22,364 bases of DNA from IMG/VR virus record IMGVR_UViG_3300031951_001306, positions 1 to 22,364 of that record. One strand, 5' to 3'. The position numbers and the translations under genes are program-made. This stretch comes from a virus. Positions 690-22,364 of this stretch are shown here, one piece after another (the stretch's first letter is position 1; each line of letters opens with the position of its first letter). The notes under the pieces are model-generated. The model searched no databases. It saw nothing but the letters and a program-made list of their open reading frames with translations, and had not been told where the DNA came from.

Positions 690-3600
690 TTAGGTTGTAT
701 ACGAGTACTGTATCTTTGAAGATCCGTTAACTTTAGTAATTTCAATTAGCTTATCAACAACATCTCTCATAGAATCAATATGCGATATAACTAGCATAAA
801 AGAAAATTGTGTTTTAAGATAATCAAATAAATTAAACATACTATTTAGGTTGTCAGAGTCTAATACACCAAACCCCTCATCAATAGCTAAAAAGTTCGGT
901 CTAGGCAAGCTGCTAATGTTAATTAATGCAGTGCGAATAGCTAATGATGATATAAACTTTTCCATACCAGATGTTAATTCAATTGGCCAAAAATTGTCTT
1001 GATCGTATACAATATAACAATTAATGTTTTTACCATCCATTTCCAACATTAAATTAAACTCAACTAATTGACTTAATATATTGTTTATTTCCTGTTCAAT
1101 ATACGGCACTGCCATTGTAATTAAATCGTACGGAACTCCATCTCGATTAACAGCTTCTAAATAATATTCATAGTATTTGTACTGTTTCTCTAAATTTTTA
1201 AGTTTATCAATAGACTCTTCAGCTTTTTCTTTAGTAGCAGTTGCCATTATTAAACGAGAATTGCAATTCATTAATTGATCAGATACGTCATGTAACAATG
1301 TTTGCAGTTCAGATTTTTTATCTGCTAACAAATCAATATCAAGTTTCAATTGGCTATTAGTTTTAATAATCGATTCTTTTTTATAGTATTCATCAATTTT
1401 GTTATTAACTTTTTCTAAATTAGTAGTCAATTGATTTGCTCGATTATCAATTTGATGTACATCTGATTCAAGTTTAAGTTTTAACGATTCTTTTTGATGT
1501 ATAGATGTGCTTAAACTATTATACGATTCTTTTTCGCTTAAGGAAGCCTCTAAACTTTGAATTTTTGTGCGTATAATTTCTAACTGATTTATGATGTTTT
1601 TTGCTTCTAATTTATCAGTTTCAATAGAAGCTTTTGTAGCAATAGCGTCTTTAACAAATACATTATCCATACAAAACTTACAATTTTCATCATACTTCAA
1701 ATCGTTTAGCTTTTCCATTTTTTCTAGCTTTGCGCGAACCTCTGCCTTCAATCGTTCAACTGTACCATGTAATTCTTTTTCAGTTTTTTTACATTCATTT
1801 AAAACGTCAATTCTAGCTTGTATTTCTGAAATATTAAATTCATTAAGTTGTAAACGTAAAGAATCTATTTCATTGTCTACTGTACTAATCCTAGAGCCCG
1901 AAGCTTGCAAATCTACTTGCAACTGGCTAGATAGCAACGTAGCTTTTTCTTTTAACAAATTTAATTCTGTTATGTTTTCAATTGAAGTATCGACTGGTAT
2001 TAGTTGTTTAGTTAATTCTAGTATATCAGCATCAATAATATCAATTGATGTTTGATACGAGGCTTTAAGAGTATTTAATTCTTTGCTTTGCTCAGTTGCG
2101 ATTGTTATTTTATTATTTGCCTCTGCTAACTGAGTCGAAAAATCTTGTTTTTGATACTCTTTAACTAAGGTAGCTACTTCTTTTATGTCTGTATTAGCAG
2201 CACTATATAAATCTTCAAATATATTAATATCTAAAAACTGACTTAATAAATCTTTACGATCTTTTTGAGCCATATCAATAAATCCTGAATTGTTGTTTTG
2301 CACTGACAATGCAGTTAAAACAAAATCTTCGTATGTGCCTAATATATTTCGTATGTGATCGTTAGTCTCACTTCGCTCTTTACCATTTAAAGACTCTTGA
2401 TTACCCGAAGAATCAATTGAATAAAAATCAACATCAACTCTTACGTGATTACCACGGCCTTTAGTTCCTGTTTTTTCAATAACGTAAATTATATCGTCTA
2501 ATTCAAAAGTAAATTTGCAACTAAACGAAGTCGATTGATTATTTAATACATTAGCTGCTTTAGAGGTTCGTCCACATTTATCAAAAATACAATATGTAAT
2601 AGCGTCTAACATAGTAGATTTACCAGAAGCATTCGGTGCAAATATTCCATGCACACCTTTCATATTTTCAAAATCAATATAATTGTTAGCACCGTAACTA
2701 AACATGTTACTAAATTCAAATCGTTTAGGTATCCAAGACACATTTCGAGTTGAATCTAAACGACTTATTGAAGAGTTTACTGTACGATTAACATGACGTA
2801 TACCGTCTAACATTTCTTCCGATAATGCAAATTTATTATCTAAGTATTTAGATATAAGTTCATTTTGATACTCAACGTCTCTAACATCTCCTATATTAAT
2901 TTTTTGAACTCGCGTTTTGTTAGTAGTAAAATCGTTTATCTTTTGTATAGTATATTCGTCAATATTAAATTTAGTTTTAACTTCAGCGAGTATACTTTTT
3001 AAATCAGCGGCGTCTGTAGACTGAACTTTAACACGCAATCGTATAGTCTTTCCTAATAACAAGTCAGGCAACGGTGTATATACTCCTTTGTCAATTTCTA
3101 AAGTATAATAACACTTATCGTTTGGTATTTCAACAAACTCTGACTTTTTAGAATCTGTGTCCCATACTAACAATCCATGTATTAACGCTTCTGCATAATT
3201 TTGTTGTATAAGTGAACCTGGATATGCTATTGTTTTTGCTTCATTAAGATATTGTGCTGGCTTATGTATATCGCCTAATAACGTTAATTCATATCCATCA
3301 AATAAAGCTACGTCTACATGATCGTTGACTAAACGAAATCCAATATCAGTAACTGCATTATTAACTGCACCGTGATGAAGTGCAATTTTATACTTGCCTT
3401 CAAATGTATTAGCTCGTATAAAATCCTTAGGTTTATCAAAAACTGACATAACTACAAAGTGTTTATCGGCCATCTCATATACCCCAGAATCTTTAAGATA
3501 ATACAAGTTAGGATGATTAAGAGCGTTAACAATAGGAGTTAATGCATCTAATCTAGAAGCGTTATTTAAGTTGCAGTCGTGATTACCTGTAATTAATATC

Positions 3601-3860
3601 GTAGGAGCTATATCAGAAAACATTTTAAAGAATTCTTGCACTGACTGAACCAATTCCGGTGTCATATCAGTTTTAGCGTGAACAATATCACCTCCTAAAA
3701 ATATAATATCGTTAGGTTGTATTGTTGATTTTATATAATCAACTGTACGAGCAAATACTGTCTTGTATTCTTTATGCCGTTTCAAGTTTCGTATATGGAT
3801 ATCAGCTAAATGATAAATTTTATCAATTTTAGTTAATCCAATGTCAATTTTTTGTATCAT
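690..3860 (-). CDS. Fused Mre11-Rad50 (SbcD-SbcC, T4 gp47-gp46) recombination nuclease
   Basis: One uninterrupted 1056-residue frame holds both subunits of the SbcCD/gp46-gp47 complex, which resects DNA ends for recombination-dependent replication. Residues 1 to about 240 carry metallophosphoesterase motifs: D20-x-H22, GGD at 56-58, GNHD at 92-95, H162/H163 and GDIH at 196-199. Residues of about 330-370 look like the Rad50-binding tail of Mre11. The Rad50 part then starts, with Walker A APNASGKST near 408-416, two long coiled-coil segments flanking a zinc-hook CKFC at 727-730, a signature SGMEK near 964-968 (Met replaces the usual Gly), Walker B FLAIDE at 990-995 and an H-loop ISH. In T4 these are two proteins of 339 and 560 residues. 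The start ATG overlaps the primase stop as ATGA, so the genes are probably translationally coupled. All key residues are present and it should be active. Confidence 0.93.
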   Translation of the reverse strand: MIQKIDIGLTKIDKIYHLADIHIRNLKRHKEYKTVFARTVDYIKSTIQPNDIIFLGGDIVHAKTDMTPELVQSVQEFFKMFSDIAPTILITGNHDCNLNNASRLDALTPIVNALNHPNLYYLKDSGVYEMADKHFVVMSVFDKPKDFIRANTFEGKYKIALHHGAVNNAVTDIGFRLVNDHVDVALFDGYELTLLGDIHKPAQYLNEAKTIAYPGSLIQQNYAEALIHGLLVWDTDSKKSEFVEIPNDKCYYTLEIDKGVYTPLPDLLLGKTIRLRVKVQSTDAADLKSILAEVKTKFNIDEYTIQKINDFTTNKTRVQKINIGDVRDVEYQNELISKYLDNKFALSEEMLDGIRHVNRTVNSSISRLDSTRNVSWIPKRFEFSNMFSYGANNYIDFENMKGVHGIFAPNASGKSTMLDAITYCIFDKCGRTSKAANVLNNQSTSFSCKFTFELDDIIYVIEKTGTKGRGNHVRVDVDFYSIDSSGNQESLNGKERSETNDHIRNILGTYEDFVLTALSVQNNNSGFIDMAQKDRKDLLSQFLDINIFEDLYSAANTDIKEVATLVKEYQKQDFSTQLAEANNKITIATEQSKELNTLKASYQTSIDIIDADILELTKQLIPVDTSIENITELNLLKEKATLLSSQLQVDLQASGSRISTVDNEIDSLRLQLNEFNISEIQARIDVLNECKKTEKELHGTVERLKAEVRAKLEKMEKLNDLKYDENCKFCMDNVFVKDAIATKASIETDKLEAKNIINQLEIIRTKIQSLEASLSEKESYNSLSTSIHQKESLKLKLESDVHQIDNRANQLTTNLEKVNNKIDEYYKKESIIKTNSQLKLDIDLLADKKSELQTLLHDVSDQLMNCNSRLIMATATKEKAEESIDKLKNLEKQYKYYEYYLEAVNRDGVPYDLITMAVPYIEQEINNILSQLVEFNLMLEMDGKNINCYIVYDQDNFWPIELTSGMEKFISSLAIRTALINISSLPRPNFLAIDEGFGVLDSDNLNSMFNLFDYLKTQFSFMLVISHIDSMRDVVDKLIEITKVNGSSKIQYSYTT

Positions 3861-4807
3861 AAACTAAATAATTTGTATTCAATAAACTTTGAAAAAGTTA
3901 ATGGTTCTGTTTCTTTAATTAAACTGCACATTCTTTCAAATCCAATTTCTGCAGGATCTTTTTCTTGCAAATCAACAAAATAAACTTCTACCCCGTTATT
4001 CATAAAATACTCTGCGTGTTCTAATGCTTGCTTTTGAGCATCTTTATCTAAACAAATGTATAACTGTTTAACTTTATTTTCTATAATCTTTTTACGTAAA
4101 TCTTCTGATATTGTTTTACCAAATAAAGGTATTGCATTTCTTCTAACTGCTATTGCGTCAAACGCACCTTCAACTAACACTAACGGAAGACTCCAATTTA
4201 TAAACAACTCAAACCCAACGCAATTTTTTGACACGTCTGGGTTTTTATGTTTAAATGATTCTGCATCGTAATAAGCTCTCCCTACGAAATAGTTAAGTTT
4301 TCCATGTTCATTATAACTCGGAATAATAATTTTGTGAGCGTATTCTCCCGACTCACAATAACCTATTCCATATTTTACTATTTCTGCCAATGTTAAATTT
4401 CGTTTATTCTGTAAGTAAAAAATAGCATTTTTATACTCGATAGAATCTGAATGTTTATATAATGGTATATACTCTTTAGGCAGGTCGATTACTGTCGTAG
4501 ATGCTTGTATACCTGCGATCTCTCTATCGCTATATCTTGTGTTACCGTTAACGAGTTTGTATAGTTCTGATAGCCTATCACGGCTTACGTTTAATGCTTT
4601 AAATAAGGTTGAAAGCTTCTTACCGGCTTTATTACACACCCAACAGTGCCAAGCATTTTCTCCTTTGTCGTTTGTAATAAGTTGCACTTCTAGCTTCTTT
4701 TTACCTGTTTGACAAAATGGACAATAATACGCTTTATTTCCTTTGTTAGTGTCTTTTCCTTTACCTAAAACAGAATCAATTAAATCTGTAAGTTTAGTAT
4801 TTACCAT
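3857..4807 (-). CDS. DNA primase, T4 gp61-like
   Basis: This 316-residue protein would make RNA primers for lagging-strand synthesis. A zinc-binding domain at the N-terminus has C29-P-F-C32 and C55-W-V-C58. A Toprim catalytic fold follows, with the conserved glutamate E213 in VLVEGAFDA and the D254-x-D256 pair in ICLDKDA, then a DPAE segment at 284-287. Length and order match T4 gp61 (342 residues) and it has no fused helicase domain, so a separate gp41-like helicase is expected elsewhere in the genome. It lies between a Holliday-junction resolvase gene and the Mre11-Rad50 gene in a recombination/replication cassette. Its stop overlaps the next start by 4 bases. There is no Shine-Dalgarno sequence before the ATG at 4807, and the late motif is absent from the 37-base gap upstream, which suggests expression with the endonuclease gene or from an unrecognised early or middle promoter. 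Confidence 0.9.
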   Translation of the reverse strand: MVNTKLTDLIDSVLGKGKDTNKGNKAYYCPFCQTGKKKLEVQLITNDKGENAWHCWVCNKAGKKLSTLFKALNVSRDRLSELYKLVNGNTRYSDREIAGIQASTTVIDLPKEYIPLYKHSDSIEYKNAIFYLQNKRNLTLAEIVKYGIGYCESGEYAHKIIIPSYNEHGKLNYFVGRAYYDAESFKHKNPDVSKNCVGFELFINWSLPLVLVEGAFDAIAVRRNAIPLFGKTISEDLRKKIIENKVKQLYICLDKDAQKQALEHAEYFMNNGVEVYFVDLQEKDPAEIGFERMCSLIKETEPLTFSKFIEYKLFSL

Positions 4808-4844: not shown

Positions 4845-5249
4845 TTATTCAGAATACCAACTTTCAGGTATTGTTTTATCGGCATACTTAAACCCATACT
4901 TATCACACCAAGAAGCGTAAGTGGTCTTAGATGCTTTGCTAATTTTAGCTTTTGAATTTTGAAATAAAAATCTAATATCTAATTCAGGATGTTGTTCTTT
5001 AATTAGAATATGTTTTTTTCGGTCTGCCATTAGAAACCTTCCTTTAGTTTCGACAAATATTCCGTTAGGCAATCGAAAGTCAGGTTTATATTTATGATTT
5101 GACGCTGGTACGATATACTGAATTACGTTTTTTTCGTACTCGCCATCAATACCTTTAGATTGAAGCTCTTCACTTATTTGCATTTCAAGTCCACTACGGA
5201 ACCCGTATTTAGCTGCAACGGCTTTTTTTGAAAATTTTGCTCTTGCCAT
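4845..5249 (-). CDS. T7-type endonuclease I, Holliday-junction resolvase
   Basis: This 134-residue protein closely resembles phage T7 endonuclease I (gp3), which cleaves four-way and branched DNA and helps clear recombination intermediates before packaging. Shared segments include FRSGLE, PASNHKYKPDF, LPNGIFVETKG, DRKKH and EQHPELDIRFLF. The catalytic residues known in T7 (E20, D55, E65, K67) map to E22, D57, E67 and K69, all present with the same spacing. The T7 protein is 149 residues, so this one is full length, with a shorter basic C-terminal tail. It precedes primase and Mre11-Rad50 and follows a structural gene. The leader has a weak AAGG five bases from the ATG, one of the few Shine-Dalgarno-like sites here. 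In T4 the resolvase role is filled by the unrelated gp49, so this looks like a replacement from a podovirus-type source. Confidence 0.95.
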   Translation of the reverse strand: MARAKFSKKAVAAKYGFRSGLEMQISEELQSKGIDGEYEKNVIQYIVPASNHKYKPDFRLPNGIFVETKGRFLMADRKKHILIKEQHPELDIRFLFQNSKAKISKASKTTYASWCDKYGFKYADKTIPESWYSE

Positions 5250-5262
5250 AACCTTATTTTAA

Positions 5263-7017
5263 TTAAATATCAAATCGCACTATAATATTAGTGTCAACAT
5301 TGTCTCGTTTTCGTATCGGGCTAGATAATTTACCAACTGCTAATAATTGTCCACCTTCGTCATATAATCCAACTGTTGTGATATACGGTCCAAATGCATC
5401 GTTTGTTAACACCCAATCTTTAGGTAATTCACTATTCGGATCGTTATTTTTACGTATTGTTGGATTCATAGTAAAATTGTATTCGTCTTCTGCTAACTTA
5501 CACACATACTCATGCTCGTATAACGTTTGAGTAGCGTTATATGTAAAGTAAAAGCTATCGAACATATTAGTTCGAGCTTGATTACTATTGTTCTCTCGAT
5601 CAGTTAGCTTATCTCCAAAGAAATAATTACCTTCAGTCGATCCTTGCTTTAACTGATTATAATACGCCCGGGGATCTGATATAACTACCATACCGTGTTG
5701 GTAAAATACATTTCCTATTACTGGCGTATTTAACAGTGATTTTGTATCGTATAGCGTGGCTATTTCTGTTGTCGTTAACGCTTTATTAAAAATAAATATT
5801 TCGTCAAGCTCTCCTATAAACGCATCCGAAGCTCGAAGACCATCTAATGTCGTAGTATCTACTGCTCTATTGCCGAACATAAAATCATTGCTATTACCAA
5901 CGTAATCTAACGATCCTATAGACATTGTTTCAATTAAAGCACTATTAATGTATAATGATATATTAGACCCTGACTTTACAAAAGTTAAATGTTTAGGCTG
6001 ATTATCTGCTAATGTAGTAATTATTTGTACAGCTCTAGAACCGTCAGAAGTTCTAGCAACTAATGCTGTCTGGTTTGATGTAGTTGTTTTAATAATAATA
6101 TCAACTGGAAATTGTGGACTATATTTGTTAATTATCTTAGTAAAATCAGATTCTTTAGAACGTACATCTCGTTTTGAAACTAAACATCTATACGTGTCGT
6201 CATTTGGCAAATCATTTTTAAACCAAAATGCTAATGTAAAATCTGAACCTGATCCAAATTGAAATTCTGGAATATGTGTTAGTCGTAAATAACTACCTGA
6301 ACCTAACAATTTAATTGAATTACCAATAGAAGTTCTGTCAGTGATAAAACTAGAAGTTATGTAATACTTATTAGCAGTAATGTGTGCAGGGAAAGAAGGA
6401 TGAGACTCAAACTCTGCACTTCTAGAAGTTTCGGATATCCACGCGTCAGTGTAAGTTAAGTCATTAAATCCTAAATAAAATATTTCATTTGAAATTTTAG
6501 CTGGTAAAGATTCATCTATTAAATTACCATATCCATCATCATATAAACTAAAAGAAACTGGGGATGTATAATAGCTAGCATCTCCTAACGACCCTGTATA
6601 TGTTAAACGAACTGAATTTGCTTTTATGCGCTCTCCAAACTTTTTCTGCGGTATACTTATTACAAATGCGTTGTCGTATAAAGACTTTTCAATCATTTCC
6701 GGATCAGCATAACCAAACGTTTCATATGGTTTTGCTGAACGTTTGTAATATAAATGATCTATACTATAATAAATTTCAGAAGCACTTTTTGATACGTAAT
6801 GATTTATAAGTGCCGATGCACTTTCAATATTTTGACGAGATCTTAAAGTAACTTTATTACCAAAATATAATCTAGGGTTAGGTTTAATTGCGGTTAATCG
6901 ACCTAACCCTTCAGAATCTAAACTAGACGTAGCTATAAATTGATATGACTTATAAACCTTAAAAGGAGTTATAGTTCTGTCACGAGAATCGATACGTTTA
7001 AATACACCAGGCTTCAT
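5263..7017 (-). CDS. Structural protein with LamG-like lectin domain and shared C-terminal domain
   Basis: This is a 584-residue virion-type protein. Residues of about 226-426 look like a laminin-G/concanavalin A-type jelly roll, from a strand around FTLAFWFKND to the closing GELDEIFIFNKALT, a fold often used to bind carbohydrate. The last 85 residues carry EYNFTMNPT, then YITTVGLYD and LLAVGKLS, and match the end of the neighbour at 7079-8494. The N-terminal 200 residues are beta-rich and unrecognised. I chose the ATG at 7015-7017. An in-frame TTG at 7048-7050 would add 11 residues but lies in the loop of the hairpin at 7026-7059. A role on the tail, baseplate or fibre exterior is likely from the lectin fold and neighbours. 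The exact position in the virion is unknown. Confidence 0.82.
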   Translation of the reverse strand: MKPGVFKRIDSRDRTITPFKVYKSYQFIATSSLDSEGLGRLTAIKPNPRLYFGNKVTLRSRQNIESASALINHYVSKSASEIYYSIDHLYYKRSAKPYETFGYADPEMIEKSLYDNAFVISIPQKKFGERIKANSVRLTYTGSLGDASYYTSPVSFSLYDDGYGNLIDESLPAKISNEIFYLGFNDLTYTDAWISETSRSAEFESHPSFPAHITANKYYITSSFITDRTSIGNSIKLLGSGSYLRLTHIPEFQFGSGSDFTLAFWFKNDLPNDDTYRCLVSKRDVRSKESDFTKIINKYSPQFPVDIIIKTTTSNQTALVARTSDGSRAVQIITTLADNQPKHLTFVKSGSNISLYINSALIETMSIGSLDYVGNSNDFMFGNRAVDTTTLDGLRASDAFIGELDEIFIFNKALTTTEIATLYDTKSLLNTPVIGNVFYQHGMVVISDPRAYYNQLKQGSTEGNYFFGDKLTDRENNSNQARTNMFDSFYFTYNATQTLYEHEYVCKLAEDEYNFTMNPTIRKNNDPNSELPKDWVLTNDAFGPYITTVGLYDEGGQLLAVGKLSSPIRKRDNVDTNIIVRFDI

Positions 7018-7025
7018 AATAGTAG

Positions 7026-7059
7026 ATAGGCTCTTTAATATAAATATCAAAGAGCCTAT
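7026..7059 (-). promoter_or_regulatory. Perfect 11-bp hairpin with the late motif in its loop
   Basis: ATAGGCTCTTT at 7026-7036 pairs perfectly with AAAGAGCCTAT at 7049-7059, leaving a 12-base loop. In the coding strand the loop reads GATATTTATATT, which contains the recurring late motif. The 3' arm ends 8 bases before the ATG at 7017, so a transcript containing both arms would place a stable hairpin within the ribosome footprint. A transcript starting inside the loop or 3' arm would lack the upstream arm. There is no U-run after the stem in the direction of transcription, which argues against an intrinsic terminator. Confidence 0.7.
7039..7048 (-). promoter_or_regulatory. Candidate late promoter motif upstream of the 7017 structural gene
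   Basis: The coding strand reads GATATTTATA in the hairpin loop, ending 21 bases before the ATG at 7017. It is identical over 10 bases to the motif at 665-674. It is proposed as a gp55-type late promoter element on the basis of recurrence only. Confidence 0.5.
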
Positions 7060-9240: not shown

Positions 9241-12200
9241 TTATATTGGCTTTTTACCAGGACCGTTAATTAAACTTTCAATAGTCGTTGGTTGATTTTT
9301 AGAAAACACAATTTTTTTCTTATTAACTTTAGTTACTTTAACAACCGGACCGCCATCTACTGTATTTGAAGTGTTAATGTTTATACCAGGCCCTGTAAGC
9401 TTAGATCCATTATATTTCATATTTTCTTGTCCAGCTGCTTGAGAGTCTTGCACATCTGCTATTTTATAACTAGATGAATAAGGAGCTCCTATGCTAGCAG
9501 AATATGCACTGCTATAAAAATACTGTTTAGTTAATGCCTTTTTCGAACTTCGTTGACCGTCTATAAACAATCCTATAGGAGTATAAGAATCTTTATACGG
9601 TATCCATACATTTCCTAATAATCGTTTAGATGGCCACTCTAACATAGTAGCTCGGTTACCAGAGCCTGTTAAAATTCTAAAACCAGTATTACTAGAAGAC
9701 GCCCATAGTTTAGATTTTTTATTTTGTTCAGTGCGAAATACTTGATAAAAATCGTAAAAACTAGCGTCTAATGTACTATCAATTGAAGTGTATGTTGAAG
9801 TTACTTTATCGTTATATGAGTATTCAACGTCTCCATTAAACACTGACCCATATGTTGAAGTTACTTTATCGTTATATGAATAATCAACATCTCCATTAAG
9901 TATAGTGTTATACGAAGTGTCAAAATCAGGTACCATATCTATAGGCTGTGCCGGATCAATTAAACTTGCACTCATGTATTCTCCTCCTGGAGCAGGCAAC
10001 ATGTTATATGCCGTGTTAAGTATAGTATGTAATCCTGATAGCGAAGCGCTGGCTACTTGTATAGTACCTTCATTGTGTAAATATTCAGATATTAACGTTG
10101 GGTTTGGATCGTCAATAACAGCGTCGTAATCAGGCTTTGTACCAGTTAGTACTGGGTTTGGATCGTCAATAACAGCGTCGTAGTCTGGTTTAGTTCCTGA
10201 TAATACTGGATTAGGATCGTCAATTAAGGCTTGTATACTAAGCTCTTCAACAGATGGACGTGTAGTGCGAATTCTGCTACGTTCTAATACATTAGGCTCT
10301 ATTAATAATCCAGTTATTGGATTGACTCGTTCTGGTAATAAACGTTTTATGTATTTGAATACAGTAAAGTCGTATATTTCCAATGCTCGGAAAAACGCTT
10401 CAAAGTCGTTTTTATTTTCGTATTTTTTCCAATAGCCCCTGGAAAAATTAACTAAATCTGTGTATCTATCCTCGTATAAATCTCCAGGCTCTCCTATATA
10501 ATCGTCAATTTCAAAATATCCTAATTGATTAAATATGTCTTCGTTGATTGCATTTTGTGGAGAGAAGTATATTCCAACTCTATTAGAGTCTAATGAGTAT
10601 TTATCAAAACTTGATTTTTCCACTCTTCGCTGACTACTTAAAGTAGCGTTAGGATCTAAACTTGAAGACTCAATGCGAACTTTATCTGCATATAAACTAT
10701 TTCCAGCTAATGATGGTGACGGAGTGTAATACGTTTCTTCAAATCCTTCAAAATTAATAGAACTAGTATTGCTATATCCTGAAAAATATATTGCGTTACT
10801 TGTATTAAAACTTTGATTGGGATGATTACTTAATTGTGCAGATTGCGTTAATGGAAATGCTTGAGACCCTATAGATAATTGACTACCCCATGCATATATT
10901 CCTATATTATGCACACCTGGACTACTTCCTGATCCTGACCACTGAGTCCAATTTGATGTATTAGAGCCAGATACTAAATATATTTCTGTTCGAATAGGAG
11001 ACTGCAATGGATCTATAAGAGTAAACGTTATTGAATAACGGTTCCAACCGTTATACGATGCCGACTCTGCTCGAGCTATAGCTCCTCCAGTCGGAACAGG
11101 ATTGGCTACTACAGACCCAGTGCTAAAATACGCAGATTTAGCAACGCCATTAGCACTACTACAACTTACAAATAATCGAATAGTTTGGTAATTTTTTTCT
11201 TTAATAAATGTACTAAAAGTGTACGTAGCTGTCGGTAATGAAGTTTGTGTTCTAGTAACGTAGTGAAACGTAACCGTACCCGAAGCTTCGGCTAACAATA
11301 TTGAATTGCTAGATCCATCTGGAGCAGCAATTGCTACTGAAGATGTACGAGCGTTAATTTGAGACCATCCCGCAAAATTTGAAATGCTATTTGGTAATAC
11401 ATTTCGAAATATGCTTGCAGACTCTATTACATTACTAGCTAACGGATATCTTTGTAATAATCTATCGTAAGGCGCTGCTGACTCTTCTCCCGTAGTAAGA
11501 ACGTTTCTATCAACGTTGTATGTATACGTTTCTGGAGAAGCGGCATGCTCTTCAATTGTAGCATCGTTTAACGATCCTGACCATAAACGAATTTCGTGAA
11601 AGTGTCCATTAAATTTACTTACTGAAGCAGCTGGGCCTGACAGTCCTGATTTTGACGCAGATGCAAAGTTAATGTAATTGGAAAAACGGCGAAACGTGTC
11701 AGTTACGTCAGGAAATACGTTTAAATCTCCATTAATACTAGCAGATTTATTGTATATTGTTTTACCGTATAACGATTTAACAACATTAAACGATGCTGTG
11801 TTATTTGTATACTCAATAGCTACTTGATGCCATGAATTGTCAAATACATTTAAGTTTGACGCTGATATAGCAACTCCAGTAACGCTATTAAACAACGTTA
11901 ACGTTCCGTCGTTATTATCAGCAGATTCTTTTGTTAACGTTAATTGATACACATCGTCTACTGACGCACTTGATATAGAGCATATTGAATAGTATGTATT
12001 TGGAGCGTAGCCAAAGTTATTATCAGTTTTAAATCGAAACTCTAATACATTAGCAGACGCTGTTACATTTGCACTATTAGTAAATGGAATTAATGGAAGC
12101 TGTAAACTACCGGTAGTTGACAACCAACCGTAGTGAAATTTATCGTGTATATATTGTGGATAGTGACTTCCATCGGTAAACGTAGAAGGGCCTCCATATT

Positions 12201-13965
12201 CTTTAATAGTTAATATACTTGAAGGTATACCGTAACAAGCTAAAAGTGCTTTAATTGAACGAGACGATCCTTTAGATTTTAATATATACGGTAAGTTATT
12301 AACTAAACGTCTCCAAAGTTCTTTTGTCGTTGTTTCAGAAGATTGAGTTAAATCGGCATTGCTTCCGGACGCGTCAGTTCCTAACGAATACTTCCATAAA
12401 TCATGGGCTGATCTTCCATTAAGTAATTGAAATCCTTGAGACTTTGCTACGTGATACAGTAAATCAGATGACATACCATCTTTAGGATGCTCTTCTCTAG
12501 AATTAATTGAGGTTAAATGTTTAACATACGACCATAAAATGTCAAAATGCTGACCTAACATATACACAAACGTTGAAAACTCTTCGTTATTTTCATCGTC
12601 TAATATATGTTGCGGAACTGTATTTAACAACGAATGTAAATTATTCTTATCAAATATTTCAGCATCGTCTAATAAATCATAGTAGTAAGTTAATCCAGCA
12701 GCGGAATCAGTAGCTACGTTTTTATAAAAATAATCATACACATCATCCCCTTGACCTGTAATGGCTTGTTTTGGCCATGGCTGTATATCGTAGCTAGAAG
12801 TTAAATGCGTGTAAATTCTACTTCCAGTAGACTCAAAAAACAAATACTTTTCGAATCCATCAAACCCACTTACAACTGCATTTCTTTTTCTATACGTATC
12901 TTCTAAGTTTACAATTGCCTCAGATCCGCTAGTGTCTAATAACGTTTGAATGGAATCTGTATACGACTCTATTAATTGAAGTTTATAATAGAAATTTTTA
13001 ATTCTTTCCGTAGCATTACTAAAATGCACAAAATTTTCAAAGTCATTATAATTTACATTTAAATCTACTCCAGATAAACTTCCAGAAAAATAACTATCAA
13101 TTAACTGCTGTGACGTTTGTACATTTGTAGATAATAAATCTGTCCACGTTTTGTAGCTTGTTGCAACACTTTGACCAGCTAATTCTTCTAAGTCAAAATT
13201 CGGACCAGCTATTTTATTTAATACAGGAGGAGTTACTTTTGCAACTAAATCAATGGTATCAACCCATGGAGCAATTATTTCTTCACATATCCATAACTGT
13301 TGCTTTTCTCCATATTTAGCTGGTAATGGAGCGTATAACTTTACAACTATTTCAAAATATCCATTAGCATCTTCTTGAGTACGAAGATTTACAATTTGAT
13401 AAATTTCATTTTTACCAAAGTTTAATACAAAAGAGTCAAATAATTTATTATCATCTAATGTATTTAATCTAGATACAAACGCTTCGTATTGAGCTTGTAT
13501 TTTTTTACTTTCAGTTTCAGAAAATTGTAAGCGAAGCTCTCGTCTGGAAGGAGAAATTTCACGTATCCATAATTTGTGACTATCAAATAATCCTAATGAC
13601 TCGTCTAAAAAGTTATGTACAATTTTATACTGACCTCTATTAATACCTAACGACTCTAACTCATCAATTAAATTTATTTCTAAATTGCTAATTGTAGGGT
13701 ATCCTTTGTTAGTACCTACAGTATAATTAATAGATTGATCTCCTGTTAAATAAATTCCGTCTAACGTGTATACATGTAGCTCTAATCTAGGAGGCGTAAC
13801 TGCTAAACTAGGTATATTAATTTTAGATAAATCTTTATTTGATTTAAGAGTAACGGCAAACTTTTTTACTGGTAATAAACTTAAATCTGTTGACTCTAAT
13901 CTACTACCTTGTATAGCATTAGATGTTTTAAGTATCTGAGATTGATTTGTATATGTTTTTAACAT
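9241..13965 (-). CDS. Giant multidomain structural protein with lectin-like domains and tandem repeats
   Basis: This 1574-residue protein is the largest in the window. Residues 1 to about 600 form a body with a conserved-looking segment near 547-592 (LWRRLVNNLPYILKSKG, then CYGIPSS and KEYGGP), which I associate with large tail or baseplate proteins of environmental T4-like phages. Residues of about 623-810 resemble a LamG/concanavalin-like jelly roll ending HEIRLWSGSLND. Residues of about 860-1040 resemble a carbohydrate-binding jelly roll of a kind common in tail proteins. Two tandem repeat blocks follow, at about 1245-1288 and 1355-1391. The rest is a beta-rich tail. Its position after the gp25/gp6 block suggests a baseplate wedge or fibre-bearing role, perhaps analogous to T4 gp7 or gp10, but no homology to either can be shown here. 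The start follows a late motif. Confidence 0.8.
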   Translation of the reverse strand: MLKTYTNQSQILKTSNAIQGSRLESTDLSLLPVKKFAVTLKSNKDLSKINIPSLAVTPPRLELHVYTLDGIYLTGDQSINYTVGTNKGYPTISNLEINLIDELESLGINRGQYKIVHNFLDESLGLFDSHKLWIREISPSRRELRLQFSETESKKIQAQYEAFVSRLNTLDDNKLFDSFVLNFGKNEIYQIVNLRTQEDANGYFEIVVKLYAPLPAKYGEKQQLWICEEIIAPWVDTIDLVAKVTPPVLNKIAGPNFDLEELAGQSVATSYKTWTDLLSTNVQTSQQLIDSYFSGSLSGVDLNVNYNDFENFVHFSNATERIKNFYYKLQLIESYTDSIQTLLDTSGSEAIVNLEDTYRKRNAVVSGFDGFEKYLFFESTGSRIYTHLTSSYDIQPWPKQAITGQGDDVYDYFYKNVATDSAAGLTYYYDLLDDAEIFDKNNLHSLLNTVPQHILDDENNEEFSTFVYMLGQHFDILWSYVKHLTSINSREEHPKDGMSSDLLYHVAKSQGFQLLNGRSAHDLWKYSLGTDASGSNADLTQSSETTTKELWRRLVNNLPYILKSKGSSRSIKALLACYGIPSSILTIKEYGGPSTFTDGSHYPQYIHDKFHYGWLSTTGSLQLPLIPFTNSANVTASANVLEFRFKTDNNFGYAPNTYYSICSISSASVDDVYQLTLTKESADNNDGTLTLFNSVTGVAISASNLNVFDNSWHQVAIEYTNNTASFNVVKSLYGKTIYNKSASINGDLNVFPDVTDTFRRFSNYINFASASKSGLSGPAASVSKFNGHFHEIRLWSGSLNDATIEEHAASPETYTYNVDRNVLTTGEESAAPYDRLLQRYPLASNVIESASIFRNVLPNSISNFAGWSQINARTSSVAIAAPDGSSNSILLAEASGTVTFHYVTRTQTSLPTATYTFSTFIKEKNYQTIRLFVSCSSANGVAKSAYFSTGSVVANPVPTGGAIARAESASYNGWNRYSITFTLIDPLQSPIRTEIYLVSGSNTSNWTQWSGSGSSPGVHNIGIYAWGSQLSIGSQAFPLTQSAQLSNHPNQSFNTSNAIYFSGYSNTSSINFEGFEETYYTPSPSLAGNSLYADKVRIESSSLDPNATLSSQRRVEKSSFDKYSLDSNRVGIYFSPQNAINEDIFNQLGYFEIDDYIGEPGDLYEDRYTDLVNFSRGYWKKYENKNDFEAFFRALEIYDFTVFKYIKRLLPERVNPITGLLIEPNVLERSRIRTTRPSVEELSIQALIDDPNPVLSGTKPDYDAVIDDPNPVLTGTKPDYDAVIDDPNPTLISEYLHNEGTIQVASASLSGLHTILNTAYNMLPAPGGEYMSASLIDPAQPIDMVPDFDTSYNTILNGDVDYSYNDKVTSTYGSVFNGDVEYSYNDKVTSTYTSIDSTLDASFYDFYQVFRTEQNKKSKLWASSSNTGFRILTGSGNRATMLEWPSKRLLGNVWIPYKDSYTPIGLFIDGQRSSKKALTKQYFYSSAYSASIGAPYSSSYKIADVQDSQAAGQENMKYNGSKLTGPGININTSNTVDGGPVVKVTKVNKKKIVFSKNQPTTIESLINGPGKKPI
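9791..9900 (-). repeat. 60-base in-frame direct repeat, two copies
   Basis: The 50 bases at 9791-9840 recur at 9851-9900 with 46 identities, a period of exactly 60 bases. In protein this gives two copies of a 20-residue unit containing GDVxYSYNDKVTSTY (residues about 1355-1391 of the 1574-residue protein). The mismatches show the copies are diverging, not freshly duplicated. Confidence 0.9.
10100..10230 (-). repeat. 54-base in-frame tandem repeat, about 2.4 copies
   Basis: Units begin at 10100, 10154 and 10208, with an exact 54-base period and a partial third copy. Each encodes an 18-residue unit with the core IDDPNPVLTGTKPDYDAV, at about residues 1245-1288 of the 1574-residue protein. The Pro/Asp/Gly-rich sequence suggests an extended linker. 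Confidence 0.92.
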
Positions 13966-15670: not shown

Positions 15671-17539
15671 TTATAATGATACTACTTTACCAATGATATC
15701 TTGATTCATATATTTAACTTCAAATATTGAAGGATCTAATGAAGGGTATATAACACCGTCTTTTGTAGCAGCAGTGATATCATATACATTACTAGAGTAT
15801 CCTTTTGTAGTGTCATGCAAATTGACTATTTGAATTTTAGTGACAGTTTGCACGCCTTCAATTCTATCTAATTCAGTATATAGTTTAGATAACATGATCG
15901 GTTGATTAATTTGCATTTTATTATTATTAAATAATTCTTTTAGCTTATTAATACATGCTACTAGTACTTGATTAGAATTATAATTTGGCAATGTAATTAC
16001 GTCAAATATTATTCCTATGTTAACAATAAACGCGTCTTTTATGTTAATAGCGTCTGTTAACATACGATATTGATTTAAGTATACTTGCAAATTTTCTTTA
16101 ACTGCTCGATTTAATGGCTCAAAGTTTCCAGATGCATTATATCCTAAAGTATATAGATTTAGTGCTAGCGGATTTGCTACTTCTTGATTATTAGAAGCTA
16201 TTTGATAATCTTGAATTACATACGCTTTTGCCACTGAGCCAAATCTAGCCGGCATAGAATACGTGCGAATCACATAGTCTTGAGCAGTAACTGATCGTTG
16301 CTGTGCTGCAAAATGTGCCATAGCGTTTAATCTAATATCTTCAATTGACTCTTCTGACTTACCGCCTGTTGCAGGATCTGGGTTTGTGCATGCAACAGAA
16401 GCTTTTACTCGATTTAATAACGTAGTGTCTAATCCTTCATTATTAATTTCGTAAGTTACTCCTGTAATGTTTTTTAATGTAAATGCCGGCACGTTTGATT
16501 CAACGCCGCCGCCCGTTGTATACTTAACTGTCAATGTAGTATTAGCCGGAGCCAATCCATATGATTTAGTATACATGAAATTTGAAGGGTCAATTGGGTG
16601 ATCAAATTGCATCTGTAACCCAATTAAACTAGAGCCTACATTGTCAGGATTAGGAATAATTTCTTCATCTGCATCTGTACTAGTACCTGCCCCGAATTGA
16701 ATTTCTAACGCTCCATTAGATCTAAATTTAGTTATAAATCTTCTAGCAGTTTTTTTCAATTTTAATAAATACGGTACTGATGAGTGTATTGATAGCTCAG
16801 GATCATTCGCTGCTGTATTTTGTACAGCTTCAAAAACTGTGTCTTGTGCTAAATACGGTACTTCGGTCCATGTATTGTTATCTGAGTCTGTTATAGACAC
16901 AACTTCAATAATATTATCTGCACCTATTAATACTTTGTCAAATCTTCTAGGAGTAGTAAAGTCGTATGTAGTAGTAACAACTGTTCCTGCAACGGCATTA
17001 ACTGATTTTTTAAGAAGATAGTATGTTGGATTTTTAGTAACATTATCAACTTCATATATTGACAATTCGGTAGTATTAAAACTACTAGACGCTCTAAAAT
17101 TTACAGAGTCAATAGTACGAAATTCAATATCTGTGTTTTCTGCTTGCACAGTCATTCCAGCTGGAATAGTTAATGCATAATCCCAATCCGGAACTTTATT
17201 TCCTGACCCGTCTGTTTTAGCTGGTATTAATTGAAATAAATCTAATTTAACTGTCGCAGCTACTTTATTTTTTGGACGATACCCGATGTTAGATGCTAAT
17301 GCTAATAAATTAGTTCTGTCAGTTGCATATGCTAACATCGACTCTTTCATTTGATCATCCATATAATATGATAATACGTCGCCTATATAAGCCGCCATTT
17401 CAATTATCATTGTACCTGGAGACGCTTCATTAAAATCTGTATATGTATTAGGAAAGTATGTTTTAGCAAATTCGATCAAATTTGTTCGAAATTCTGAAAA
17501 ATCTTTATTTAGATAACTAACCTCTTTTTTCTCTTTCAT
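15671..17539 (-). CDS. Baseplate wedge protein, T4 gp6-like
   Basis: This 622-residue protein is the size expected for T4 gp6 (660 residues), which forms the inner ring of the baseplate with gp25 and gp53. The N-terminus has the family pattern YLNKDFSEFRTNLIEFAK, FNEASPGTMIIEMAAYIGD and LSYYMDDQMKES, seen in gp6 of marine T4-like phages. A central baseplate-J-like beta region follows, then RSVTAQDYVIRTYSMPARFG and a KAYVI strand near residues 420-450, then an alpha/beta C-terminus. The gp25-like gene is immediately upstream with a 4-base gap, the same pairing as in many contractile injection systems. There is no Shine-Dalgarno sequence. The ATG at 17539 is the only start that keeps the conserved N-terminus without extra sequence. 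Confidence 0.92.
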   Translation of the reverse strand: MKEKKEVSYLNKDFSEFRTNLIEFAKTYFPNTYTDFNEASPGTMIIEMAAYIGDVLSYYMDDQMKESMLAYATDRTNLLALASNIGYRPKNKVAATVKLDLFQLIPAKTDGSGNKVPDWDYALTIPAGMTVQAENTDIEFRTIDSVNFRASSSFNTTELSIYEVDNVTKNPTYYLLKKSVNAVAGTVVTTTYDFTTPRRFDKVLIGADNIIEVVSITDSDNNTWTEVPYLAQDTVFEAVQNTAANDPELSIHSSVPYLLKLKKTARRFITKFRSNGALEIQFGAGTSTDADEEIIPNPDNVGSSLIGLQMQFDHPIDPSNFMYTKSYGLAPANTTLTVKYTTGGGVESNVPAFTLKNITGVTYEINNEGLDTTLLNRVKASVACTNPDPATGGKSEESIEDIRLNAMAHFAAQQRSVTAQDYVIRTYSMPARFGSVAKAYVIQDYQIASNNQEVANPLALNLYTLGYNASGNFEPLNRAVKENLQVYLNQYRMLTDAINIKDAFIVNIGIIFDVITLPNYNSNQVLVACINKLKELFNNNKMQINQPIMLSKLYTELDRIEGVQTVTKIQIVNLHDTTKGYSSNVYDITAATKDGVIYPSLDPSIFEVKYMNQDIIGKVVSL

Positions 17540-17543
17540 TTTG

Positions 17544-17996
17544 TTATGTTAAAGTTTGCCGGGCTGAAGTAGTAAGTAAAAATGTAACTGGTTGATTAAT
17601 TCGTTGTCCATTAACAGATATACTTATAGTAACAGTAACTCCATGCTCAGATAACTGTGTTTTTGAATCTACAGCTTCTACTGCCACTACATTCAATTCT
17701 TCAATAGTAACGTATGGCATCCAAAATTCTATTGCTGATGCAATAGAATACTTAATATCGCCTATTAGTTTTTCTGTAATGTTATTAAATAGCGAACTAT
17801 ATACATCAGTACCAAAAAATGGTTCCATTATACGTTCTCCTTTTCTAGTTAATACCAAATTTTTTAAATTTGACATTACTTGCTCGTTAGTAGAATATGA
17901 CGACTCAAATAAACGTCCACCAGCAGTAACTAAAGGCAATTTTATTCCAACTGCCGTGTTTTGTTTAGGTGCGGTATATTTTATTTGATATGCCAT
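17544..17996 (-). CDS. Baseplate wedge protein, T4 gp25-like
   Basis: This 150-residue protein matches the gp25 family (T4: 132 residues), which sits at the junction of baseplate inner ring and sheath and is conserved in tailocins and type VI secretion (TssE). Visible family features are LKNLVLTRKGERIMEPFFG, with the ERxMxPxFG motif, followed by a helix (EKLIGDIKYSIASAIEFWMPYV) and two C-terminal strands ending VTISISVNGQ. The start ATG overlaps the stop of the preceding gene (TAATG), with AAAGGA seven to eight bases upstream, one of the best Shine-Dalgarno-like sites here, consistent with strong coupled translation. The gp6-like gene follows after 4 bases. Confidence 0.93.
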   Translation of the reverse strand: MAYQIKYTAPKQNTAVGIKLPLVTAGGRLFESSYSTNEQVMSNLKNLVLTRKGERIMEPFFGTDVYSSLFNNITEKLIGDIKYSIASAIEFWMPYVTIEELNVVAVEAVDSKTQLSEHGVTVTISISVNGQRINQPVTFLLTTSARQTLT

Positions 17997-21924: not shown

Positions 21925-22364
21925 TTAAATAACTTGATCTATAATTCCTAATTCTAATGCTTTTGCTGCTGACATATAAAAATCTTTTCTACACGCCTTT
22001 CTCCAAAACTCTTCATTCTGTTTTGTTTTCTCTGCCATTAGTTTATAAAACGACTCTTCTAACTCGTCAATATGATCAGCATTAGCTTTAATGTCAGCTG
22101 ACTTACCATATATTTCAGCCGAAGCTTCGTGCACCATAATAGTAGTCGAATTGCTAGCAGCGCGCAACCCAGTTGCACAACATAAAATCATTGCAGCGGC
22201 ACTCATAGCTCTACCACGTGCAATTACATTAACAGGCACAGACAACGTTTGAATGTAATCAATAATACCTAAAGCCTCGTATACATCACCACCATTAGAG
22301 TTAATTAATACTGTAATAGGATCTTTAGCATTTTCTTCAGGTCGATTAGATAATATGATTCTTG
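21925..22364 (-). CDS. ClpP-like serine protease (N-terminus outside window)
   Basis: The frame is open to the right edge, so only the last 145 residues are seen. An in-frame TTG at 22245 is not the start, because conserved sequence continues upstream (VLINSNGGDVYEALGIIDYI). The ClpP fold is clear: INSNGG, GRAMSAAAM with the nucleophilic serine, MVHEA with the catalytic histidine, and KDFYMSAAKALELGIIDQVI. Aligning the last block with E. coli ClpP puts alanine (in RKACRKD) at the place of the catalytic aspartate, so the triad may be incomplete or rewired. Possible roles are processing of head proteins or altering host ClpXP proteolysis; no adjacent head gene is visible to decide. It heads the operon with the HD enzyme and late sigma factor. 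Confidence 0.9.
   Translation of the reverse strand, partial: RIILSNRPEENAKDPITVLINSNGGDVYEALGIIDYIQTLSVPVNVIARGRAMSAAAMILCCATGLRAASNSTTIMVHEASAEIYGKSADIKANADHIDELEESFYKLMAEKTKQNEEFWRKACRKDFYMSAAKALELGIIDQVI

Follow-up and report, generated by a model that had tools for sequence, protein, structure and literature searches.

In phage T4, gp46 and gp47 feed recombination-dependent replication by DNA-end processing. Fusion of Mre11 and Rad50 into one protein was described in 2011 for Mimivirus R555 together with twelve further sequences, one of them from Bacillus phage 0305phi8-36 (Yoshida, Claverie and Ogata, PMC3175470). That study noted that the Mre11 C-terminus is about 28 Å from the Rad50 N-terminus in the T. 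maritima structure, so that a linker of 9-12 residues suffices, and proposed that the fused Mre11/Rad50 assembles in cis. R555 homologues were very abundant in aquatic viral metagenomes, and their scaffolds carried phage primases (of Twort, SPO1 and others) and T7-gp3-like endonucleases (PMC3175470). The initial annotation of the present locus asked whether its fusion had been described before. The kind has been, with the same structural rationale (PMC3175470); the fusion itself is therefore not new, and the gene studied here is a good example of a known form.

The fused gene and its surroundings

The window analyzed here is a whole virus record of 22,364 bases. Positions 690 to 3860 of its minus strand hold one uninterrupted ORF of 1056 codons, which starts with ATG and has no internal stop, so that there is a single ORF here and not two separate genes of the T4 gp46/gp47 type. 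The ORF itself, its PHROG and Pfam matches and its motif conservation identify it as a fused SbcD-SbcC (Mre11-Rad50) gene encoding 1056 amino acids, in agreement with the initial annotation, which had read nuclease and ATPase in one frame without a stop or frameshift. Its product is very probably a single-chain Mre11-Rad50 (SbcDC) protein of the kind known as the Mimivirus R555-like family, and the phage a large tailed one.

The Mre11/SbcD part (2769 to 3860, minus strand) covers residues 1-364 and consists of a phosphoesterase domain at about 10-234, a cap at 239-307 and a Rad50-binding helix pair at 329-364; its assignment is based on Metallophos, phrog_100, the predicted model and structural matches to SbcD. 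The linker, residues 365-374 approximately (2739 to 2768, minus strand), was delimited by predicted secondary structure and by conservation in 65 fused sequences. The Rad50/SbcC part (693 to 2738, minus strand), residues 375-1056, contains ATPase lobe I with Walker A, a short coiled coil and the zinc hook, and was assigned from AAA_23, phrog_77, motif conservation and structure matches. When the two halves were searched separately against PHROG profiles, as had been suggested, residues 1-380 matched the SbcD-like phrog_100 (E 2e-27) and residues 381-1056 the SbcC-like phrog_77 (E 9e-56). Pfam Metallophos (residues 14-200) and AAA_23 (384-620) both scored above their cut-offs. The NCBIfam matches to SbcC/Rad50 subfamilies were weak and stayed below the cut-offs, which is unsurprising for a phage protein that has diverged.

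All five phosphoesterase motifs with their metal ligands are present in the Mre11 part, which marks it as an Mre11/SbcD nuclease, and the metal-site residues D20, H22, D58, N93, H94, H163, D197 and H199 are invariant in the 65 fused sequences. The complete set of Rad50/SbcC ATPase motifs was found as well: Walker A (residues 408-416), the Q-loop (Q521), the zinc hook (C727-x-x-C730), the signature ELTSGME (S964-G965), Walker B ending in D994-E995 and the H-loop (H1027). Among the same 65 sequences, G413, K414, S415, S964, G965, D994, E995 and the hook cysteine C730 are invariant, and C727 and H1027 are at least 90% conserved. The motifs named earlier thus all lie where they had been placed, most of them invariant, and the histidine left as H162/163 is H163. 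Since the metal-site and ATPase residues do not vary in 65 relatives, both active sites look intact and functional, as judged from the sequences.

The fusion is immediately preceded upstream by a DNA primase gene (3857 to 4807, minus strand; phrog_47, E 4e-32; Toprim_2), whose stop overlaps the ATG of the fusion as ATGA, so that translation of the two may be coupled. A phage endonuclease I gene of the T7 gp3 type (4845 to 5249, minus strand; PF05367, E 3e-58; phrog_945) shares the operon direction with both. Baseplate wedge genes are found at 15671-17996, and the phage is therefore a contractile-tailed one. Beside the replication genes, positions 5263-7050 encode 595 residues that include a concanavalin-like lectin (LamG) domain; this protein probably lies on the virion surface. 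The window also contains a 1574-residue ORF (9241-13965) without a PHROG match and, at 21925-22362, a gene for a ClpP-like protease (PF00574, E 8e-33), the start of which is cut off by the contig edge.

The join between nuclease and ATPase

A monomer structure model built from 65 sequences had a mean pLDDT of 84 and a pTM of 0.50, and replaced a weak earlier model from 17 sequences (pLDDT 74). With this pTM, the model does not establish how nuclease, helix pair and ATPase are placed relative to one another. In comparison with PDB structures, residues 8-308 matched the SbcD/Mre11 nucleases 7dog, 4m0v and 4nzv (Z 23-25), and the ATPase part matched Rad50/SbcC heads (7yzo and 3qf7, Z 30-32). Among viral models, the structures that matched best were full-length giant-virus DNA repair exonucleases of 1215-1389 residues, with proteins of Tupanvirus, Harvfovirus, Yasminevirus and Catovirus at the top, all of them predicted models matched by fold only.

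In the predicted model, nuclease and cap extend to residue 307 and are followed by a low-confidence loop at about 311-319, two helices (329-344 and 348-363), a linker of about 10-11 residues and the first Rad50 strand (375-384). The helix pair, as modelled, is at the place of the Rad50-binding helix-loop-helix of Mre11. The predicted join thus falls between the Rad50-binding tail and the Rad50 N-terminus, the location proposed from the letters of the sequence. Cap and helix-loop-helix are retained and the linker is short, as in R555-like fusions, for which linkers of 9-12 residues have been published. After the linker comes an R-N-x-x-W-x-P stretch (372-378), in which R372, W376 and P378 are at least 90% conserved in the 65 fused sequences.

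Two alternatives, in which the two parts would also occur as separate polypeptides, concern this region. An internal start might yield a separate Rad50 in addition to the full fusion, leaving the stoichiometry unfixed, and an in-frame ATG at residue 386, the only conserved one near the join, is present in 62 of the 65 relatives. However, M386 lies behind Rad50 strand 1 (375-384) and inside the Rad50 fold, so that the product would lack this strand; the sole Shine-Dalgarno-like string nearby in the window is at codon 323, far from M386, and split Rad50 proteins, too, normally have methionine or leucine at this motif. We consider such a second product very improbable. Slightly less probable still is that a protease cuts the linker after translation and the protein works as two subunits. 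The linker is short and exposed and the phage encodes the ClpP-like protease at 21925-22362, but the linker region is conserved (R372, W376 and P378) and not a variable loop, it contains no known cleavage motif, and the ClpP-like protease is not tied to it.

The single-chain protein, then, is the preferred reading of the join. It would be a rather unlikely extension of this reading that the RNxxWxP linker is a working part, coupling the nuclease in cis to the state of the ATPase; the fused chain could then not release its nuclease, and end cutting in this phage family would be regulated unlike that of split Mre11-Rad50.

Intact, interrupted and split relatives

A protein scan returned 28 viral loci, most of them 49 to 79% identical, and at least 554 stretches of viral contigs matched in an alignment-based scan. 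In the survey of fused versus split relatives proposed by the initial annotation, 107 of 120 fetched loci have a single ORF spanning the query from before residue 100 to beyond residue 900. Most of the other 13 are cut by a contig end; also among the 13 are two loci with a frame interrupted by an inserted gene (L002 and L027) and the bacterial-MAG loci L119 and L120, with a short SbcD-like match only. Among the matches listed, the closest full-length relatives are other fused viral proteins, as befits an R555-like protein. Fused homologues are also present in the isolated Microcystis phage Mel-JY01 and in uncultured phages of 484 kb and 735 kb. In Tenacibaculum phage pT24 (L128, 5995-9927), one CDS annotated as metallo-phosphoesterase is a 1310-residue Mre11-Rad50 fusion, a more distant homologue with Walker A and the CxxC hook. 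In plasmid records, the matches were only partial and Rad50-like, and none was a fusion that covered 80% of the query.

The window comes from a metagenomic contig, a source in which a chimeric assembly or a sequencing frameshift could join two adjacent genes into one apparent frame. Many contigs, independent of one another and drawn from different metagenomes, show the same single frame, which excludes this reading for practical purposes, and the fusion is found as well in the isolated phage Mel-JY01 and in a pT24 gene annotated as one CDS. No conserved stop or restart was found at the join among the fused relatives; neither of the observations named beforehand as speaking against the fusion was thus made. 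The fused form is standard in, and conserved across, a large phage group, and the fusion in the window comes from an aquatic-type phage. No second split copy was found in six long IMG/VR contigs: by profile search, four had one SbcC match and no SbcD match besides the fusion, and the other two, together with one further contig, had no SbcD match at all. The 735-kb phage LR756501 carries extra SbcC-like and SbcD-like matches.

In L002 (5980-10205) and L027 (6004-8861), the fused gene is broken in the nuclease domain just after the last metal-binding motif, GDIHK. The gene stops about 25-40 codons past this motif and resumes behind an inserted gene that is endonuclease-like, so that two pieces of nuclease domain are produced. 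By family, the insertions match HNH/homing or Vsr/MTES_1575-like endonucleases, and the added tails are alike in both loci (EYxxEExxxxEDELxxYLxxGW and KxRxKRVxP). A group I intron was rejected for these interrupted relatives, as there was no Rfam match at the gathering score. Phage Aeh1 has a similar arrangement in its split nrdA with mobE (PMC2988022). At the same site, the frame of L006 (6001-9222), L007, L018 and L035 is unbroken and has 21 extra residues (TLQEYSCEELVVNESKLTTKKIKHIKPAIKY), which resemble the two tails joined and look like a scar healed after loss of the inserted gene.

At the other end of the gene, the last 60 codons or so of the fusions in L010 (8940-10122) and L011 (1569-4742) are unlike those of close relatives. 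In L010, the C-terminal sequence normally seen (ISHIDSMRDVVDKLIEITK) closes an ORF further downstream (9316-10122), which looks as though a substitute 3' end had come in with an invading gene. The ORF of L114 (3-100) opens with an intein-end-like stretch (LIRYNGKISISGN) directly before CNLNN, where the nuclease has its GNHD-C metal-site motif.

Separate genes were found in T4, as had been claimed, and in five other phages (S-SSM7, Twort, EF24C, PM135 and pEa_SNUABM_12). In a midpoint-rooted tree that combined 19 fused sequences with the concatenated sequences of six split phage pairs (25 in all), fused and split forms were on opposite sides of one branch with a support of 100/99. Because of the long branches (pT24 and PM135) and the midpoint rooting, the tree says only that one fusion event is possible within this sample; fusions in a wider set are not monophyletic (Yoshida et al., PMC3175470). 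Bacterial, plasmid-borne and eukaryotic fusions have been published as well.

Proposed function and comparison with known systems

T4 gp46/47 and SbcCD are the models for the function proposed here. Most likely, a pre-assembled MR complex would tether and resect phage DNA ends for recombination-dependent replication. Each chain would supply one nuclease and one ATPase head, and the helix pair would pack on the coiled-coil root of its own chain or of its partner's. Two chains would dimerize through their nuclease domains and, with ATP, through their heads, giving the usual M2R2 complex, with zinc hooks linking the coiled-coil tips. Such a complex would bind, tether and resect the phage DNA ends, feeding recombination-dependent replication, and may also help to degrade host DNA. 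The nuclease to ATPase ratio of 1:1, which the initial annotation expected the fusion to fix, follows from the single chain, and a functional gain from pre-assembly would be plausible.

The suggestion of 2011 that the R555-like fusions of aquatic metagenomes belong to phages is now a direct observation: the fusion is present on phage contigs that also carry genes for baseplate, primase and endonuclease I, and in a Microcystis phage that has been isolated. The phage group of the window is the phage source predicted in PMC3175470. For structural studies of Mre11-Rad50, single-chain MR proteins also offer a naturally occurring 1:1 construct, and the fusion in the window has an intact metal site and a short coiled coil.

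Like the R555-like fusions, the protein has Mre11 N-terminal and Rad50 C-terminal in one chain, with a linker of about 10 residues and the helix pair kept, and its gene adjoins primase and T7-gp3-type endonuclease genes, as on the published scaffolds of R555 homologues. R555 itself is 1351 residues in length, its coiled coil is long and two of its metal-site residues are changed (PMC3175470), whereas the window fusion has 1056 residues, a shorter coiled coil, all metal-site residues intact, and a bacterial instead of an amoebal host. The homologue in Microcystis phage Mel-JY01 (WWT39521) is fused in full length and about 42% identical over 99% of the length, although it is annotated by its ATPase half only ("AAA domain containing protein"); a primase is likewise nearby upstream, but a GIY-YIG gene, not endonuclease I, lies upstream of the primase. 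T4 gp46/gp47 and the T4-like, SPO1-like and T5-like SbcC/SbcD pairs share the enzymes, their order (nuclease gene upstream) and the short coiled coil, but they are encoded by two separate genes and lie on the other side of the supported branch from all fused sequences. The solved folds of E. coli SbcCD and cellular Mre11-Rad50 match both parts of the window fusion, but these proteins have separate subunits, longer coiled coils and no linker.
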